Assembly: GCA_947588815.1 (NCBI GenBank)
Contig: CANQAG010000003.1
Location: 58,360-122,359, forward strand
Length of the DNA: 64,000 bases
Direction: 5' to 3'
Source of the DNA: an uncultured Bacilli bacterium
Lineage (GTDB): Bacteria; Bacillota_I; Bacilli_A; RFN20; CAG-449
The notes under the pieces were generated by a model, which saw only the letters and a program-made list of their open reading frames with translations, did no database searches and had not been told where the DNA came from. Positions 44,605 through 53,237 of this stretch are shown one piece after another (the first letter of the stretch is position 1; each line of letters opens with the position of its first letter). Made by a program: the position numbers and the translations under genes.

Positions 44605-45567
44605 CTAATCGATTGCTTCGATCATGTCGCAATTTAAGATGCGAAAGTTTTTTTCTGTTAATAAAATCGCATTCTTAAGATTAAAAGTAGTACCGACTTT
44701 TAAGGTTTGAATGAAGGAAATCATTTCATTGCCATCGATAAGATTACCATTGCAATCAATGCGATATTCGATATTGTTGAGAGTCGCGGTAAAATAGGCT
44801 TTAGAAAAATTGCCATTTTCGGAAAGGCCTTCTAAAGAAGCGACTTTTAAATTGCGACAATTGATCGTGGCTAAATAGTAAGACGAAGGAACATCTGGAA
44901 GTTCATCGGTGATATCGATAATCGAAGGTTCTTCATAATATATTTCGCCACCATCATAATCTAAAGAAAAAACAGAGTCTTCGGAAGAGTAATCGTTACA
45001 ATTGATGCGGTGAACCCCATTGGAAGCGATATCGTATTCACCTAAAATCATATAGGGTTTACCGACTTCAAAATCGATATTTTCGATATGAATATTGTAA
45101 GCATAATAACCATATTTACCATCCATAAAAAAGGCGTTGGCGATACTTGGATAACGATAATTATATCCTTCGATCGACATTAAAGTGCCACAAAACCACG
45201 CACCCAAATCACCATCATTAAAACTCATAAAGGTTTCATATCTTTCTTTAGCGGATTCATTGTACTCTTCACTATCGTCGTTCGAGGACACTTCTTGAGT
45301 AGATTCATCTTGAGAAGAATTTTCTTCGTGGCTCGAGTCTTCGCTAGAAGAAAGTTCCACACTGCTATATGTGCTTTCTAGACTGGCAGTATCTGGCAAA
45401 TTCGAACTTTCATTTGAAGTTGTTTCGATAGATAAAATCGAGGAATTGCCTTGAACACTGGAGTTTGGCAATGAAAGACTTGAAGCGTCATTAGAGCCGC
45501 AAGAGCATAAAATTAGTACCATTAAAGGCCAAATTAAACGAATTTTTCTCTGTTTCATTTTAATCAC
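44605..45567 (-). CDS. Lipoprotein with Ser/Glu-rich linker
   Basis: LVLILCSCGSNDASSLS lipobox; long Ser-rich linker. Confidence 0.75.
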   Translation of the reverse strand: MIKMKQRKIRLIWPLMVLILCSCGSNDASSLSLPNSSVQGNSSILSIETTSNESSNLPDTASLESTYSSVELSSSEDSSHEENSSQDESTQEVSSNDDSEEYNESAKERYETFMSFNDGDLGAWFCGTLMSIEGYNYRYPSIANAFFMDGKYGYYAYNIHIENIDFEVGKPYMILGEYDIASNGVHRINCNDYSSEDSVFSLDYDGGEIYYEEPSIIDITDELPDVPSSYYLATINCRNLKVASLEGLSENGNFSKAYFTATLNNIEYRIDCNGNLIDGNEMISFIQTLKVGTTFNLKNAILLTEKNFRILNCDMIEAID

Positions 45568-45678: not shown

Positions 45679-45707
45679 TTGACAAACCGAAAATCGATGA
45701 TTATTAT
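45679..45707 (+). promoter_or_regulatory. Consensus sigma-A promoter driving a long 5' leader / ncRNA candidate
   Basis: TTGACA - 17 nt - TATTAT. Confidence 0.8.
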
Positions 45708-45713
45708 ATTAAA

Positions 45714-45930
45714 AAATAAATAGGAGGTGTATGCAAGCAAACGTTATCCCTTAAATTTACCTTAAATATTCAAATTAATTGTTACCGAGAGGCTTAAAGT
45801 TCACTACTACGTCGGATTTAGTGCTAAGCCAATGGTGTTTAAGCGATAAGTGCATTAATAAATATGGATTTTAATATAAGGATACTATGTCAGTATCTCG
45901 TGCAAGCAATCGATAAGGAGCTTGCCAAAT
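45714..45930 (+). ncRNA. Candidate structured RNA (riboswitch-like leader or independent ncRNA), class unknown
   Basis: Strong promoter; stems GGCTTA/TAAGCC with inner CACTA/TAGTG, GATAC/GTATC, GCAAGC/GCTTGC; no long ORF. Confidence 0.6.
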
Positions 45931-46006
45931 AAAAGATTGATATGTTAATTTTGCTAAGATGTACATTACATTTCTAGCGTAAATAAAAAAGAAAGGAGAT
46001 TAATAT

Positions 46007-49000
46007 ATGAAAAAGACTCTTGCGTTGCCTTTACTTGTTACTTCCGTTTTTGCGGTTGGAGTATTGGCAGGTTGTTCTTCCAATGAAAATTCGGATTCTT
46101 TGAGCGATGCATCCTCTTTGGTCAATTCTACTGGAAGACAAGAAACTTCAAGTGAAGGTGTTCCAAGTGACGATTTTGGTGAAGACGGCGATTATTACGT
46201 TGACACTGTAACTGGAGATGAATACGAAAAACAAAATGGCAGATGGGTTAAAGTAAAAGAAGGTGACAACGTTTATTATACTGTCCACTTTGATTTAAAT
46301 GGTGGTCATATCCCAGGTACAAACGCTACTACACTTCCTGATCAAAAAGTTACTCCGGGACATTGGGCTAAAGCACCAGAAGTTAATCCGGTTAAAGATA
46401 ATTTCGAATTTAAAGGATGGCTTAGTGAAAGGGACAATTCGAATTCGACTTGGTCATTTACTTTCCCGGTTTATGGTAATTTAATTTTAACCGCAGATTA
46501 TCGTGTTTCAAGCAGTGTTGCCAATAAGTTCTCGATTACCATCGATCCGAAAAACGGCGATGATACTTACACTATCGAGACCTTTGCGGGTGATAATCCG
46601 GCATTTAAAATTCCATCTAAGGGTGATAACTTTGCTTTCGTCGGTTGGTATTGGAAAGAAAACGGGCAAAAATATTCAGGATATATTGAAGACTATGTTG
46701 AAGGCGGATGGACTTTAGAGGCCCATTACGAAGTTGCAAAATTTAACTTCCAATATTATGTTGAAACCAATGAAGAAGTAACTATCACGGGACTTCTTGA
46801 CATTGAAAGCGTCTCGGTATCCGTTCCTGCATCTATCAACGGACGAACTGTTACCAAGATTGGACAAACTGCATTCCAGTCACGCATTTATTTGGAAAGC
46901 GTCACCCTTCCAAGCACTATTAAAGAAATTGATTCGCGTGCTTTCAATGGTGCCGGACGATTATTAGAAATCAAAGTCGACCCCACCAACGCTTATTATG
47001 AAGATGTCGACGGAATTCTCTTTAATAAAGGTAGAACGGAATTATTGCGTTATCCATGTAAAAAGGGCAGCAGTTACACCGTTCCGAATACCGTACAAAA
47101 AATCGGCGATTACGCTTTCTATGGATATGCCGACAATTGTATTTCTTCAATTTCCTTAAATGAAGGATTACAAGAAATCGGAGCATATGCTTTCTATCGA
47201 AACGAATTAATGACTAATATCGTTTTCCCAAGTTCGCTTAGAAAAATCGGCGACAGTGCCTTTAGTTTCGTTACGGCTCAAGGTGTTATGACTCAAATTA
47301 CCTTCAATGATGGTCTTGAATATATTGGTGATAGTGCCTTCGTTGGACAATACTTCAAAGATACCTTTACCTTACCATCAACCGTCAAACATATCGGTGC
47401 TTACGCCTTTGCAAATTGTACTGCGATAAAGAAGTTTGTCTTCCCACGCGACCTTGAAGAATTAGGCGAAAATGCCTTTAGCGCCGCTTGGGGACTTCTT
47501 GAAATCGATGTTGAAAGTGGCAATACCCATTTCAAAGTTCAAGACAACATGTTATTCGATTACAATATGTCGAAAGTTCTCTTATGTCCTTCCGGACAAC
47601 GTGATCCGGTTACGATTCCAAGTACCGTTACTGAAATCGGAGACTTCGCTTTCTTCTATTGTGATGATCTTGTCGATTACACTTTGCCGACAAATCTTCA
47701 AAGAATCGGTAAACGGGCCTTCGCATTCTCGGGAATAAAGGAAATTGCAATTCCTAATTCGGTTACAGAACTCGGCGAAGAAGCTTTCGGTTATTGCTAC
47801 GATTTAGAAAGTGTTACTTTCGGTTCCGGTTTAAATACCATTCCGGTCTATGCTTTTGACGAATGCTATAGTTTGACTACTGTCGATATTCCGGGGAATG
47901 TCCAAACTATTGAAGAAAATGCTTTCTGGGGTTGCTCTGGTTTAACTTCAGTTACCTTCCACGAAGGATTAAAAGAAATTAAAGATAGTGCCTTTTATTT
48001 CTCAAATAGCGCCGGTGGTGACGATGACGATTATGGATATAGTTATGATTCGGGGAACAAACCCGGACTTAAAACAGTCACATTCCCGAATTCGCTTGAA
48101 ACTCTTGGAAGAAATGTCTTTGCCAATCAAACCGCGTTGACTTCGGTTAACTTTGGTACCGGCTTACAGAATGTGAGCACTGAAGCGTTCTCTTCTACCG
48201 GATTAGTAGTAATTAATGTTCCAGCGGGAAACAATTACTTCTCATATGCTGACAATATTTTATACAATAAAAATAAAACTGAAATTTACTTCGGCTTAGA
48301 TGCCTTAACCGGTACCTTGACTATACCTAATTCAGTTACCAAGATCGGTGATTATGCGTTCTATCACTTAGATAACATCACCGGTATTGAGTTGTCGAAT
48401 CAACTTCAAGAAATCGGGTCAGGAGCCTTTGCTTACACTAAGGCTCAAGCAATTTCCTTCCCGGCTTCATTGAGACTTATTAAAGATGGCGCTTTCTATA
48501 TGGGTTCATTGAAGAGCGTTACCTTCGCAAATGGCGTTGAAGAAATTCAAGACAGTGCCTTTGTAATGAACGAGATGACCACTCTTGCTTTACCGAATAG
48601 TTTACAAACTATCGGTCCTGACGCTTTCAATTGGTGCTCAAGTTTAGTAACCGTTACTTTCGGTACCGGCTTAAAGACCATTGGAGAACGTGCTTTCTCT
48701 GAATGTAGACGATTGCTCGGTTCTAGCGTCAACGATGAATCACAAGCTGAAGCTTTAGTCTTACCAAGTGGATTAGAAAACCTTGGCGATGGTGCTTTCG
48801 CAGCGACACAAGTTGTAGACTTTGCCTTTACAGCAAATAATGATAAATTCAAAGTTGATAAGGGTATGATTTTAGATCAACAAGGAAAAGTCGTTTACGC
48901 TTACGCAAGCGGCAACGCTCAAACTTCCTTGGAACTTCCAAGTACCGTTACTGAAATTAGACCATATGCTTTTGCAGCCGGTCTTGTTACCAATCTTACT

Positions 49001-49258
49001 TCGTTAAAGCTTTCTGAAAATCTCGAAAAAATCGGACAACAAGCGTTCGCTAACTGCACTAAGATCGGTTCAATCGTGATTCCAAAGAGCGTTACTACCA
49101 TCGAAAGAAGAATTTTCGCTAACTGGGGTGCCAATCAATTGGTTTACTTTGAATGTAGTGAAGATTACGCTTTGGCAAACTTTGATTCCGATTACCTCGG
49201 TAGCTTGCATAATTCTGCACGGGACAAAGTTACCTACGACTATCAAGCAGCGGAGTAA
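46007..49258 (+). CDS. BspA-like LRR_5 lipoprotein with InlB B-repeat-like domains
   Basis: VLAGCSSN lipobox; YTVHFDLNGGHIPG...FKGWLS; many LRR_5 units (IGDYAFYG, SLNEGLQEIGAYAFYRNELMTNIVFPSSLRKIGDSAF). Confidence 0.93.
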   Translation: MKKTLALPLLVTSVFAVGVLAGCSSNENSDSLSDASSLVNSTGRQETSSEGVPSDDFGEDGDYYVDTVTGDEYEKQNGRWVKVKEGDNVYYTVHFDLNGGHIPGTNATTLPDQKVTPGHWAKAPEVNPVKDNFEFKGWLSERDNSNSTWSFTFPVYGNLILTADYRVSSSVANKFSITIDPKNGDDTYTIETFAGDNPAFKIPSKGDNFAFVGWYWKENGQKYSGYIEDYVEGGWTLEAHYEVAKFNFQYYVETNEEVTITGLLDIESVSVSVPASINGRTVTKIGQTAFQSRIYLESVTLPSTIKEIDSRAFNGAGRLLEIKVDPTNAYYEDVDGILFNKGRTELLRYPCKKGSSYTVPNTVQKIGDYAFYGYADNCISSISLNEGLQEIGAYAFYRNELMTNIVFPSSLRKIGDSAFSFVTAQGVMTQITFNDGLEYIGDSAFVGQYFKDTFTLPSTVKHIGAYAFANCTAIKKFVFPRDLEELGENAFSAAWGLLEIDVESGNTHFKVQDNMLFDYNMSKVLLCPSGQRDPVTIPSTVTEIGDFAFFYCDDLVDYTLPTNLQRIGKRAFAFSGIKEIAIPNSVTELGEEAFGYCYDLESVTFGSGLNTIPVYAFDECYSLTTVDIPGNVQTIEENAFWGCSGLTSVTFHEGLKEIKDSAFYFSNSAGGDDDDYGYSYDSGNKPGLKTVTFPNSLETLGRNVFANQTALTSVNFGTGLQNVSTEAFSSTGLVVINVPAGNNYFSYADNILYNKNKTEIYFGLDALTGTLTIPNSVTKIGDYAFYHLDNITGIELSNQLQEIGSGAFAYTKAQAISFPASLRLIKDGAFYMGSLKSVTFANGVEEIQDSAFVMNEMTTLALPNSLQTIGPDAFNWCSSLVTVTFGTGLKTIGERAFSECRRLLGSSVNDESQAEALVLPSGLENLGDGAFAATQVVDFAFTANNDKFKVDKGMILDQQGKVVYAYASGNAQTSLELPSTVTEIRPYAFAAGLVTNLTSLKLSENLEKIGQQAFANCTKIGSIVIPKSVTTIERRIFANWGANQLVYFECSEDYALANFDSDYLGSLHNSARDKVTYDYQAAE

Positions 49259-49260
49259 TT

Positions 49261-50304
49261 ATGAAAAAAAGGATTTTATCGGTATTAGTTCTCAGTTTGT
49301 TATTATGTACCGGTTGCCAAGATGAAGGGACGAGAACAGTAACTTTCTATTTGAATTACGATGAAAATGATACTGAAGTTTACCTTACTAAAACGCTTTC
49401 CGCGACCGATGCTTTAAAAACTCCAGTACGTCCAATCCGCAAAGATTACGTCTTTGCGGGCTGGAGTACTGATCGAAGCGAGACTACGGATTTCTATGAT
49501 GGATTTGATTCGCCTATTACCGGTGATTTATCATTATACGCGGTTTGGATTGATTATGACTCTATAGATGATCTTACGAAAGTTACAAGATTTTTAGAAA
49601 AAATCAAATCTTTAGAAGGTACAGTCGGCGAGACATTTCAAGCGGAAAGCGGTACCTTGATGTATCATATGCCACTTGAATATGGAGGCCAATATCGTGA
49701 TGAAATGGAGTATCATCGTTACGACGACATCATGGTTCAAAACTATTATTACTACAACCAAGATGTAAGACAACAATATGGTGAACGCCAATTCTTCGTT
49801 CAAGATAACAAAGCTTACGATCTTTATAAAGATTTGGAAAACTCGGCCGATAATAAAGCGTCGTATCAAAATTTATCGCAAAACTTTTCGTTAGATAACT
49901 GGCTCGACATCGGTTTTTCAAGCATACATTTATATTATTTGTATGCTCTTCAAAAACAGTTAGTGCAACAAACTTACGATACAATCGACTATGAATTGAA
50001 CTTCAATTATGATGAAGTAGATGAATATTCTAATTCTTATTCTTTCTCATATTCGTATTATACTCTTAGCAACTCAAGTGGAATTATCTCGGAAGAAGAA
50101 CATATTTATAAAATTACGATGGCCTTCTTAAATCGTAAAATTGTACGTTCCGTTGCCGAAGGTTATAGTTGGACCGCTATCGGCGGAGATCTTGCAACTG
50201 AAGATGAATTCCTTTGGGAATGTGAATACACTCAAGTAGACTCGATTGGTGAGTTTGAAGGAGAACGTTTCAATCCTAGTGATTTCAATTTCAATAATCT
50301 ATAA
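49261..50304 (+). CDS. Lipoprotein with InlB B-repeat-like domain
   Basis: LLLCTGCQDEG lipobox; TVTFYLNYDENDTEVYLTKTLSATDALKTPVRPIRKDYVFAGWSTDRSETTDFYDGFDSPITGDLSLYAVW. Confidence 0.8.
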   Translation: MKKRILSVLVLSLLLCTGCQDEGTRTVTFYLNYDENDTEVYLTKTLSATDALKTPVRPIRKDYVFAGWSTDRSETTDFYDGFDSPITGDLSLYAVWIDYDSIDDLTKVTRFLEKIKSLEGTVGETFQAESGTLMYHMPLEYGGQYRDEMEYHRYDDIMVQNYYYYNQDVRQQYGERQFFVQDNKAYDLYKDLENSADNKASYQNLSQNFSLDNWLDIGFSSIHLYYLYALQKQLVQQTYDTIDYELNFNYDEVDEYSNSYSFSYSYYTLSNSSGIISEEEHIYKITMAFLNRKIVRSVAEGYSWTAIGGDLATEDEFLWECEYTQVDSIGEFEGERFNPSDFNFNNL

Positions 50305-50338
50305 AATATTTTAAAAGAAAAAAATCATAACGAAGTTA

Positions 50339-50392
50339 AAAAGGGATGTTGAAAAACTCTTTGAAAATAGAGTGATATTCAACATCCTTTTT
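50339..50392 (+). terminator. Intrinsic terminator after lipoprotein pair
   Basis: AAAAAGGGATGTTGA ... TCAACATCCTTTTT. Confidence 0.75.
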
Positions 50393-50548
50393 AAATGAAA
50401 CATTTATAATTTTTATTAATCAATGTTACGATTATTTTAACTGTGAGTCTAATAGCAAATTTAAATATTCAGATTTTGATGTCATACTTGTAGATGATTG
50501 TTAAGCTTAAGAAAGAATCTATAATAGAAAACGATAGGAGGTGCAAAA

Positions 50549-51509: not shown

Positions 51510-53237
51510 TTAAAATCTTACCGTTTGTGATACTTTAGAAGTGTCATATCTTACATTACTATTCAAATAAGAAGAACCGTTTATCGTTTCATTAAATGAA
51601 CGGATATAATCGGCGGTAATATCGCGGTAATTGTAAACTTCTCCGTTTTTGGTAAGTTTGCCGACAATTTTAGCGCTGGGGAAGTAATTATAATTACGAT
51701 TGACGTCGCGATGTAAAGCTAGATAATCGATCACAGCGACGCGATAAGTTTTAGAACTTTCAATCGCTTGACTATCAATACGATACATATGGGTTGAGTC
51801 GAAATTAAATTCTTTAATCAAATCTTCGCCTTTGGTATCCAAAATATAGATTTCATTGTCAAAAGGCAGTGATTTGTATAAATTGGCATAAGTGATCGTG
51901 CCACTTTGAAGGTTGCTACGTCCGGTATTGGTAATAGCATAGGAAATATCGTAACCGGCTTTAAGGGTTTGCTCGGCGATTGCTGTTGCGACAAAATTAG
52001 GTAATGATTGAGCATAACTTAAATAACTTTTTAATGTTCCTAAGGTTTCTTCCCCAATTTGATCGGAGATAGCTTTGTAAGAAGAAACTAAGGCACTGAG
52101 GTTTGGATCTTCTGCAACTTGAATAGAACTCGTGTCATAGTAAGAGTAATCTAAACAAGTTACTTCTCCTTGTGGAGAAACTTCAATAGATACATAAGAG
52201 TAAGCTTCACCATTACTACCACCTTGGACAAAAGGAACGCCGTTAACCATTCCTAATTCGGTTTGATGGGTGTGAGCGCAAAAAACCGCATCGACATAAC
52301 GCGATTGGGATTGTGGGCTTATTTTGGTAATTCCGGCATAGTCAGTAAGTGTGTCAGCGGATGAAGAATCTTCTAAGATGCTTTTTTGATCGGTGTGGAC
52401 ATCGAGAATTACGACATCGACATCGTGTTGGATTCTAAGTTCGTCAGAGAGTTGTTTAATTATCGGAGTTGGCGATTTAAAAGTATAAGGGTCCGCGAAT
52501 TGTGAACAAATCGAGGTGATTTGTCCATTGCCGATCACGCCGATAATTCCGACTTTTAAACCATTCTCCAAGGTTCTTATCACATATTTATCACCAAGAT
52601 TAGCATAATCGCCGGTCGATTTTGTATCGATGTCATAATTATAAATATTCGCGGCTAAAAAGGGAGTTTGATATCCTGTGCTACTAGCTCGTTTACGATT
52701 TTCTAAAATACGTTTGGCACCCCAATCGAATTCGTGATTTCCAAGGGTGAAACAATCAAATTCAATTTCATTCATGCAATCGGTTAAAAGGTTTCCGTAA
52801 TTGTAATTCGATTCGATGGCGCCTTGCCACATATCTCCGGAATTAAGCAAAAGAGTGTTTCCGTCTTTCTTTTGTTCTTTAAGAAAACTTCCGAGCTTAA
52901 CGATTCCGACTTCATCACCATTAGGAATTACCGATCCGTGAAAATCGTTGATGGCATAAAGATTTAAAGTACGAGGCTCATTATAGTAAGAACTTTCAAC
53001 ACTGCTTGAAGAAAGGGAATCTTCAATTATCGAGGAATTCGATTCTTCCTCACTACTAGAAAGGTAAGTGTATTCTTCGCTTGAAGTATCCGTTGAAGAA
53101 GTGGCATCACTTAAAGTTGAAGTTGATTCGATTTGAGATGGGGAGGATGAATTATTAAGACTACTTGTTTGATTTGTTGCTATTTTACAACCACTTAAGA
53201 GTAGTAAAATAAATAAAAGGGTTATTTTTTGTTTCAT
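51510..53237 (-). CDS. Lipoprotein bifunctional metallophosphatase / 5'-nucleotidase
   Basis: LLLSGCKIATN lipobox; AINDFHGSV, LNSGDMWQGAIESN, TLGNHEFDWG, AVFCAHTHQTELG. Confidence 0.9.
   Translation of the reverse strand: MKQKITLLFILLLLSGCKIATNQTSSLNNSSSPSQIESTSTLSDATSSTDTSSEEYTYLSSSEEESNSSIIEDSLSSSSVESSYYNEPRTLNLYAINDFHGSVIPNGDEVGIVKLGSFLKEQKKDGNTLLLNSGDMWQGAIESNYNYGNLLTDCMNEIEFDCFTLGNHEFDWGAKRILENRKRASSTGYQTPFLAANIYNYDIDTKSTGDYANLGDKYVIRTLENGLKVGIIGVIGNGQITSICSQFADPYTFKSPTPIIKQLSDELRIQHDVDVVILDVHTDQKSILEDSSSADTLTDYAGITKISPQSQSRYVDAVFCAHTHQTELGMVNGVPFVQGGSNGEAYSYVSIEVSPQGEVTCLDYSYYDTSSIQVAEDPNLSALVSSYKAISDQIGEETLGTLKSYLSYAQSLPNFVATAIAEQTLKAGYDISYAITNTGRSNLQSGTITYANLYKSLPFDNEIYILDTKGEDLIKEFNFDSTHMYRIDSQAIESSKTYRVAVIDYLALHRDVNRNYNYFPSAKIVGKLTKNGEVYNYRDITADYIRSFNETINGSSYLNSNVRYDTSKVSQTVRF

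Follow-up and report, generated by a model that had tools for sequence, protein, structure and literature searches.

The window analysed here, 64,000 nucleotides of DNA from an uncultured Bacilli bacterium, contains a gene for a BspA-like lipoprotein of 1083 aa (46007..49258, forward strand), in whose translation the lipobox LAGC is seen. The protein combines BspA-type leucine-rich repeats (PF13306, LRR_5, E 1e-136) with a Listeria-Bacteroides repeat domain (PF09479, E 5e-10). A second lipoprotein gene (49261..50304, forward strand; PF09479) starts 2 nt past the stop of the first and is probably in the same operon. Both belong to a cluster of four lipoprotein-like genes between 44605 and 53237, the other two being on the minus strand at 44605-45567 and 51510-53237. 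The window also holds a ribosomal protein L10 leader (RF00557, 54735-54839) and, on the minus strand, a tmRNA (RF00023, 23886-24258), both above threshold. Upstream of the 1083-aa gene lies a sigma-70-type promoter (45679..45707, forward strand) with a -35 TTGACA at 45679-45684, a 17-nt spacer and a -10 TATTAT at 45702-45707, which matches the consensus at 11 of 12 positions. The region has four promoter-like sites against 3.4 in shuffles, and this one is the best of them. It is present in the sister loci L009 and L010; the spacer is 16 nt in L010 and the promoter is otherwise kept in both sister species. The predicted transcription start is at about 45714; from there to the lipoprotein ATG at 46007 runs a predicted 5' untranslated leader of the mRNA of about 293 nt (45714..46006, forward strand). 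No terminator-like site was found in the leader up to the lipoprotein gene, and the transcript should therefore continue into it. A first-pass annotation of this DNA had placed the promoter about 290 nt before the start codon of a BspA-like lipoprotein gene and, seeing no T-run, had offered a long leader as one option; promoter and gene are where it put them, and the option was the right one. A transcription attenuator was rejected, as the intrinsic terminator that it would have before the gene is absent.

The sequence is a genuine conserved, genus-restricted mRNA leader. Within a single genus of uncultured gut Bacilli it is kept in three species, namely the source genome and two sister species known from MAGs of uncultured Bacilli (G002 and G003), and in both sisters it lies directly before the same lipoprotein gene; over 351 nt, the identities are 91 and 88%. 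The conservation in relatives on which the first-pass annotation had made a structured RNA depend is thus present, the leader proper being 93-94% identical to those of the two sister species, compared with 85% for the spacer immediately upstream and 75-91% for fourfold sites in the genes on either side. Sites invariant in all three species make up 91% of the leader and 81% of BspA third codon positions (p=3e-5), and the leader likewise exceeds the spacer next to it upstream in conservation (p=0.009). Other intergenic spacers of the region are equally or more conserved than the leader; the one that separates a DMT-type transporter gene from the second lipoprotein gene (50305-50548) is 96-99% identical in the sisters, which is above the leader. 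Since the leader is more invariant than both the third positions and the upstream spacer, we take it to be under selection, even though nearby spacers match it. Within the leader, a middle block (45791-45856) has 62 of 66 sites unchanged in the three species. Conservation of the first codons was rejected as a sign of structure shared by the leader and the coding sequence, because invariance at 15 of 16 third positions is also seen where four other tested genes begin.

Known Rfam riboswitches and the raiA, ROOL and 6S RNAs resemble this leader in lying upstream of a gene or in being structured RNAs with a promoter of their own. The leader differs from them in having no Rfam match and no terminator and in being restricted to one genus. 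No family of Rfam 15 reached the gathering threshold in the leader, and with lax filters and E-values up to 10 the best match (E 3.1) was to an unrelated snoRNA family; scans of the sister loci and of the loci of distant putative orthologues returned tRNAs alone. The earlier description of the RNA as unclassified is thus supported, and the alternatives that it had named, raiA-type RNA and other large Firmicutes ncRNAs, find no match even at E-values up to 10. When 281 genomes of the order were searched with a covariance model built on the core of the leader, nothing convincing appeared beyond the three congeners, the match in one further genome (G058, E 0.086) being at chance level. Searches for paralogues within the leader's own genome, and for matches in viral contigs, plasmids and phages, also found none. 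As its known occurrence is limited to these three congeners, the RNA is not a widespread ncRNA class. An independent small or large ncRNA (raiA, ROOL or 6S-like) that happens to neighbour the gene would account for the promoter match and the conserved block, but we consider it very unlikely, given that nothing resembling a terminator separates it from the lipoprotein gene, that it has no match in Rfam, in any other of the 281 genomes of the order or in the viral contigs, plasmids and phages searched and that it always directly precedes the same gene.

The folding results divide the leader in two. As a whole it folds no better than dinucleotide shuffles (z -0.14), while in each of the three species 45878-46020 folds beyond chance, with z -3.5 for the window, -3.3 for G002 and -3.7 for G003 (an independent tool gave -2.9). 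The last 140 nt or so of the leader region form two hairpins and a stem over the start codon, and both halves exceed chance on their own, 45880-45930 with z -2.6 and 45930-46020 with z -3.07 (-3.32 and -1.93 in the sisters). The first element is hairpin A (GGATACT-ATGTC-AGTATCT, 45880..45898, forward strand), including the GATAC/GTATC stem at 45881-45897, in which a U-A pair becomes U-G in G003. Hairpin B (GCAAGC...GCTTGC, 45902..45925, forward strand) forms with a pairing probability of about 1.0; it has a compensatory change in G002 (GCAAGT...ACTTGC) and a G-U pair in G003 (GCAAGT/GCTTGC). Stem D (45937..46011, forward strand; 15 bp with one G-G mismatch) is predicted to form between 45937-45952 and a stretch made up of the Shine-Dalgarno sequence's 3' half, the spacer and the start codon, and encloses hairpin C (45953-45978), whose inner part is largely deleted in G003. 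This stem around the start codon is, as modelled, weak and AU-rich. Further upstream, a hairpin in the middle block (45791..45830, forward strand) pairs GGCTTA (45791-45796) with TAAGCC (45825-45830) around an inner CACTA (45802-45806) and TAGTG (45819-45823), and has one pairing-compatible change; by itself it does not exceed chance (z -0.18). A long-range helix of 11 bp with one C-C mismatch (TTATC-C-CTTAAA / TTTAAG-C-GATAA, 45744..45849, forward strand) is predicted as well, and its invariant sequence offers no test by covariation. In some folds the 5' end pairs over a long range with codons 4-9, a pairing that varies with the length of coding sequence included and is without covariation. 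The compact stems described in the first-pass annotation are thus all at their places, but neither the GGCTTA hairpin nor the whole fold departs from chance, and its structured RNA holds for the last part of the leader rather than for its full length.

The structure could mean that we are dealing with a plain 5' untranslated region that sets or regulates translation through hairpins A, B and C and stem D, which a trans-acting protein or sRNA would open, with the Shine-Dalgarno-like sequence near the 5' end (see below) being incidental. The excess folding of 45878-46020 in three species and the coverage of the start codon by stem D argue for this, as does the finding that the named structure, with 63 pairs, contains none but standard pairs in the three species at positions where neither base is missing, and that the few stem changes preserve pairing. 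On the other hand, set against 24 further genes in the window, the predicted accessibility of the Shine-Dalgarno sequence and AUG (0.43 and 0.39) falls in the middle of the range, and stems show no more than a weak deficit of substitutions (p=0.07). Hairpin B alone among the named stems has a compensatory change, covariation across the three sequences is not above shuffles (355 of 500 reach it), and stem D, which never varies in the three species, is beyond such a test. Translational control of this kind seems to us somewhat unlikely as the main role of the leader. A fourU-like RNA thermometer was also considered and rejected. As in fourU thermometers, a UUUU (45949-45952) lies opposite Shine-Dalgarno purines in an AU/GU-rich stem that includes the start codon; unlike them, the stem has a long internal loop. 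Between 25 and 48 C the predicted unpaired fraction of the AUG rises from 0.34 to 0.61 in the window, a small opening, and stays at 0.33-0.36 in the sisters; a thermometer is not supported, because the accessibility is ordinary among the 24 genes and the sisters show no temperature response.

A direct repeat of 12 nt had suggested that the leader may switch between two folds. Its copies, TGCAAGCAAACG at 45732-45743 and TGCAAGCAATCG at 45901-45912, are both present, as is the single GCTTGC (45920-45925) for which they were proposed to compete. The repeat itself is at chance level, since an equally good one, with at most one mismatch, occurs in 207 of 1000 leader shuffles (21%), and neither sister species retains it, their second copies being GCAAGTGATCG and GCAAGTGATTG. 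The first copy stays GCAAGC in the sisters, and in G002 its sixth pair with the GCTTGC segment is lost. In the partition function the pairing of the first copy with GCTTGC has a probability of 0.0 in all three species, and the local hairpin one of about 1. Because the second copy and GCTTGC change together, in a double change local to hairpin B in G002 that keeps this hairpin, the two-fold switch is not supported; the sequences of two sister species suffice to dispose of a tempting model. A ligand-binding riboswitch or other switching leader, with two TGCAAGC copies competing for GCTTGC, would give the conserved middle block a role that it otherwise lacks, and on paper either copy does pair with GCTTGC. 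With the repeat gone in the sisters, GCTTGC co-varying with the local copy only, no terminator-like site or Rfam match, and the leader occurring before one gene only in one genus only, it is nevertheless the least probable of the explanations considered here. A new riboswitch or ncRNA class is not demonstrated.

A further feature lies near the 5' end. An extended, STAB-SD-like Shine-Dalgarno sequence, AGGAGGTG (45722..45729, forward strand), is found about 9 nt from the predicted 5' end of the mRNA and is invariant in the three species. It is a perfect complement of the 3' tail of the 16S rRNA, CACCTCCT within GGATCACCTCCTTT, the tail being taken from genomes of the same family, as the source assembly lacks it. 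In 3000 leader shuffles it occurred four times anywhere and never within the first 20 nt or so. There are 25 copies of AGGAGGTG in the genome, most of which are ordinary ribosome binding sites, a start codon following after 6-10 nt. The copy in the leader has neither a normally spaced start codon nor an open reading frame that is conserved in frame. The only start near it, at a distance of 3 nt, begins a frame of seven codons (ATG..TAA, MQANVIP*, 45731..45754, forward strand, its start 3 nt from AGGAGG). In the sisters a one-base indel leads to a different frame of 11 codons, MQA(R/K)RYPLNL(P/L), with a GTG start. Leader-peptide control, in which ribosomes translate the short frame after AGGAGGTG and stall or attenuate, draws on the start closely following AGGAGG in all three species (ATG in the window, GTG in the sisters) and on the 11-codon frame shared by the sisters. 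The single-base difference that leaves another peptide in the window, the suboptimal spacing of 3 nt compared with 6-10 nt at most other AGGAGGTG sites and the lack of a terminator-like site make it quite improbable. The predicted mean unpaired fraction of AGGAGGTG is 0.28-0.46 in the leader alone and about 0.14-0.23 once the fold takes in 40-60 nt from the start of the gene. Folding in isolation thus pairs AGGAGGTG in part, which speaks against the stabiliser reading given below, and its accessibility would rely on ribosomes binding during transcription. A second AGGAGGTG without a usable open reading frame, followed by a TTG-TAA start-stop, was seen on the reverse strand at another locus (G000:C6:20973-20980). 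It sits 71 nt upstream of a 330-aa open reading frame that has its own Shine-Dalgarno sequence, and together with the 35 nt or so that follow it is nearly invariant in three species.

Shine-Dalgarno sequences of this kind are known as protectors of mRNA. In the cry3A mRNA of Bacillus thuringiensis, the STAB-SD near the 5' end binds the 30S subunit without translation and blocks RNase J1 (PMC4113751). Among Firmicutes, the aprE leader is described as having a 5' stem-loop that protects its mRNA (PMC7509114, PMC3997798). The source genome encodes two RNase J homologues (TIGR00649, 587 and 411 bits, both over the cut-off) and, taking the predicted transcription start, the leader has a Shine-Dalgarno sequence near the mRNA 5' end that is able to pair with 16S rRNA. 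In view of the documented protection by Shine-Dalgarno sequences and stem-loops, and of the two RNase J genes, we read the leader as a STAB-SD-like 5' untranslated region. Like cry3A, it has, near the 5' end of the mRNA and a long way before the real start codon, a Shine-Dalgarno-like sequence that complements the 16S 3' end and directs no conserved open reading frame, and the bacterium possesses RNase J. It differs in that the promoter here is a primary one, while the stabilised end of cry3A lies inside a longer transcript, and in that the leader is 293 rather than 129 nt long, has additional conserved hairpins and has a function that we infer. In the aprE leader of Bacillus subtilis, a 5' stem-loop and ribosome binding stabilise the mRNA and translation is not needed. 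The likeness to aprE, which also concerns the mRNA of an exported protein, is claimed for the kinds of element and not for the sequence: the same two kinds of element occur, with no 5'-terminal stem-loop in the source genus.

We therefore suggest, with a probability of roughly 0.45, that the leader is a genus-specific cis-acting 5' untranslated region of the lipoprotein operon mRNA with a STAB-SD-like stabilising 5' end. Transcription would start from the strong promoter at about 45714, so that AGGAGGUG, a perfect extended Shine-Dalgarno sequence within the first 15 nt or so of the mRNA, may seat a 30S subunit without productive translation. The seated subunit would block attack on the 5' end by RNase J, and the two-lipoprotein mRNA of about 4.5 kb would hence be long-lived, as in STAB-SD-type stabilisation. 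The two small hairpins and the weak AU-rich stem at the start codon may also tune translation. Stabilisation of the mRNA, the transcription start, 30S binding and any effect of the 3' hairpins are what we infer, and the leader is most likely a 5' stabiliser that is structured in places. A STAB-SD does not need a long leader, and the stabiliser reading leaves the conserved middle (45791-45856) without explanation. The leader may instead be a new genus-restricted regulatory RNA, in which this block binds a protein or ligand and, together with stem D, controls synthesis of the lipoprotein; we regard this as unlikely.

The 5' stabiliser reading may be compared with the same type of lipoprotein gene elsewhere. 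G006 and G012, both from a sister genus and each a separate species, encode lipoproteins of 1070 and 1082 aa, with 47 and 42% identity, respectively, in the N-terminal region, and from sequence we argue that their genes are orthologous to the one considered here. Their leaders are shorter and unrelated to the 293-nt leader. Directly at the mRNA start predicted from their own promoters they have a perfect hairpin, of 9 bp in G006 and 8 bp in G012, which would be the 5' stem-loop version of the aprE arrangement. In a genus of another family, two species have an identical 24-nt palindrome, CCAAGTTCGTACCGAATTGGACGA, just before the Shine-Dalgarno sequence of a related lipoprotein gene (loci L091 and L092, also L086 and L087), and this palindrome occurs once per genome. 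The comparison with the sister genus suggests that orthologous surface-lipoprotein mRNAs may, if this is true, swap a terminal hairpin for an idle Shine-Dalgarno sequence. If our reading of the leader is right, ribosome-binding 5' stabilisers, which are known mainly from Bacillus, would extend to reduced-genome uncultured gut Bacilli.
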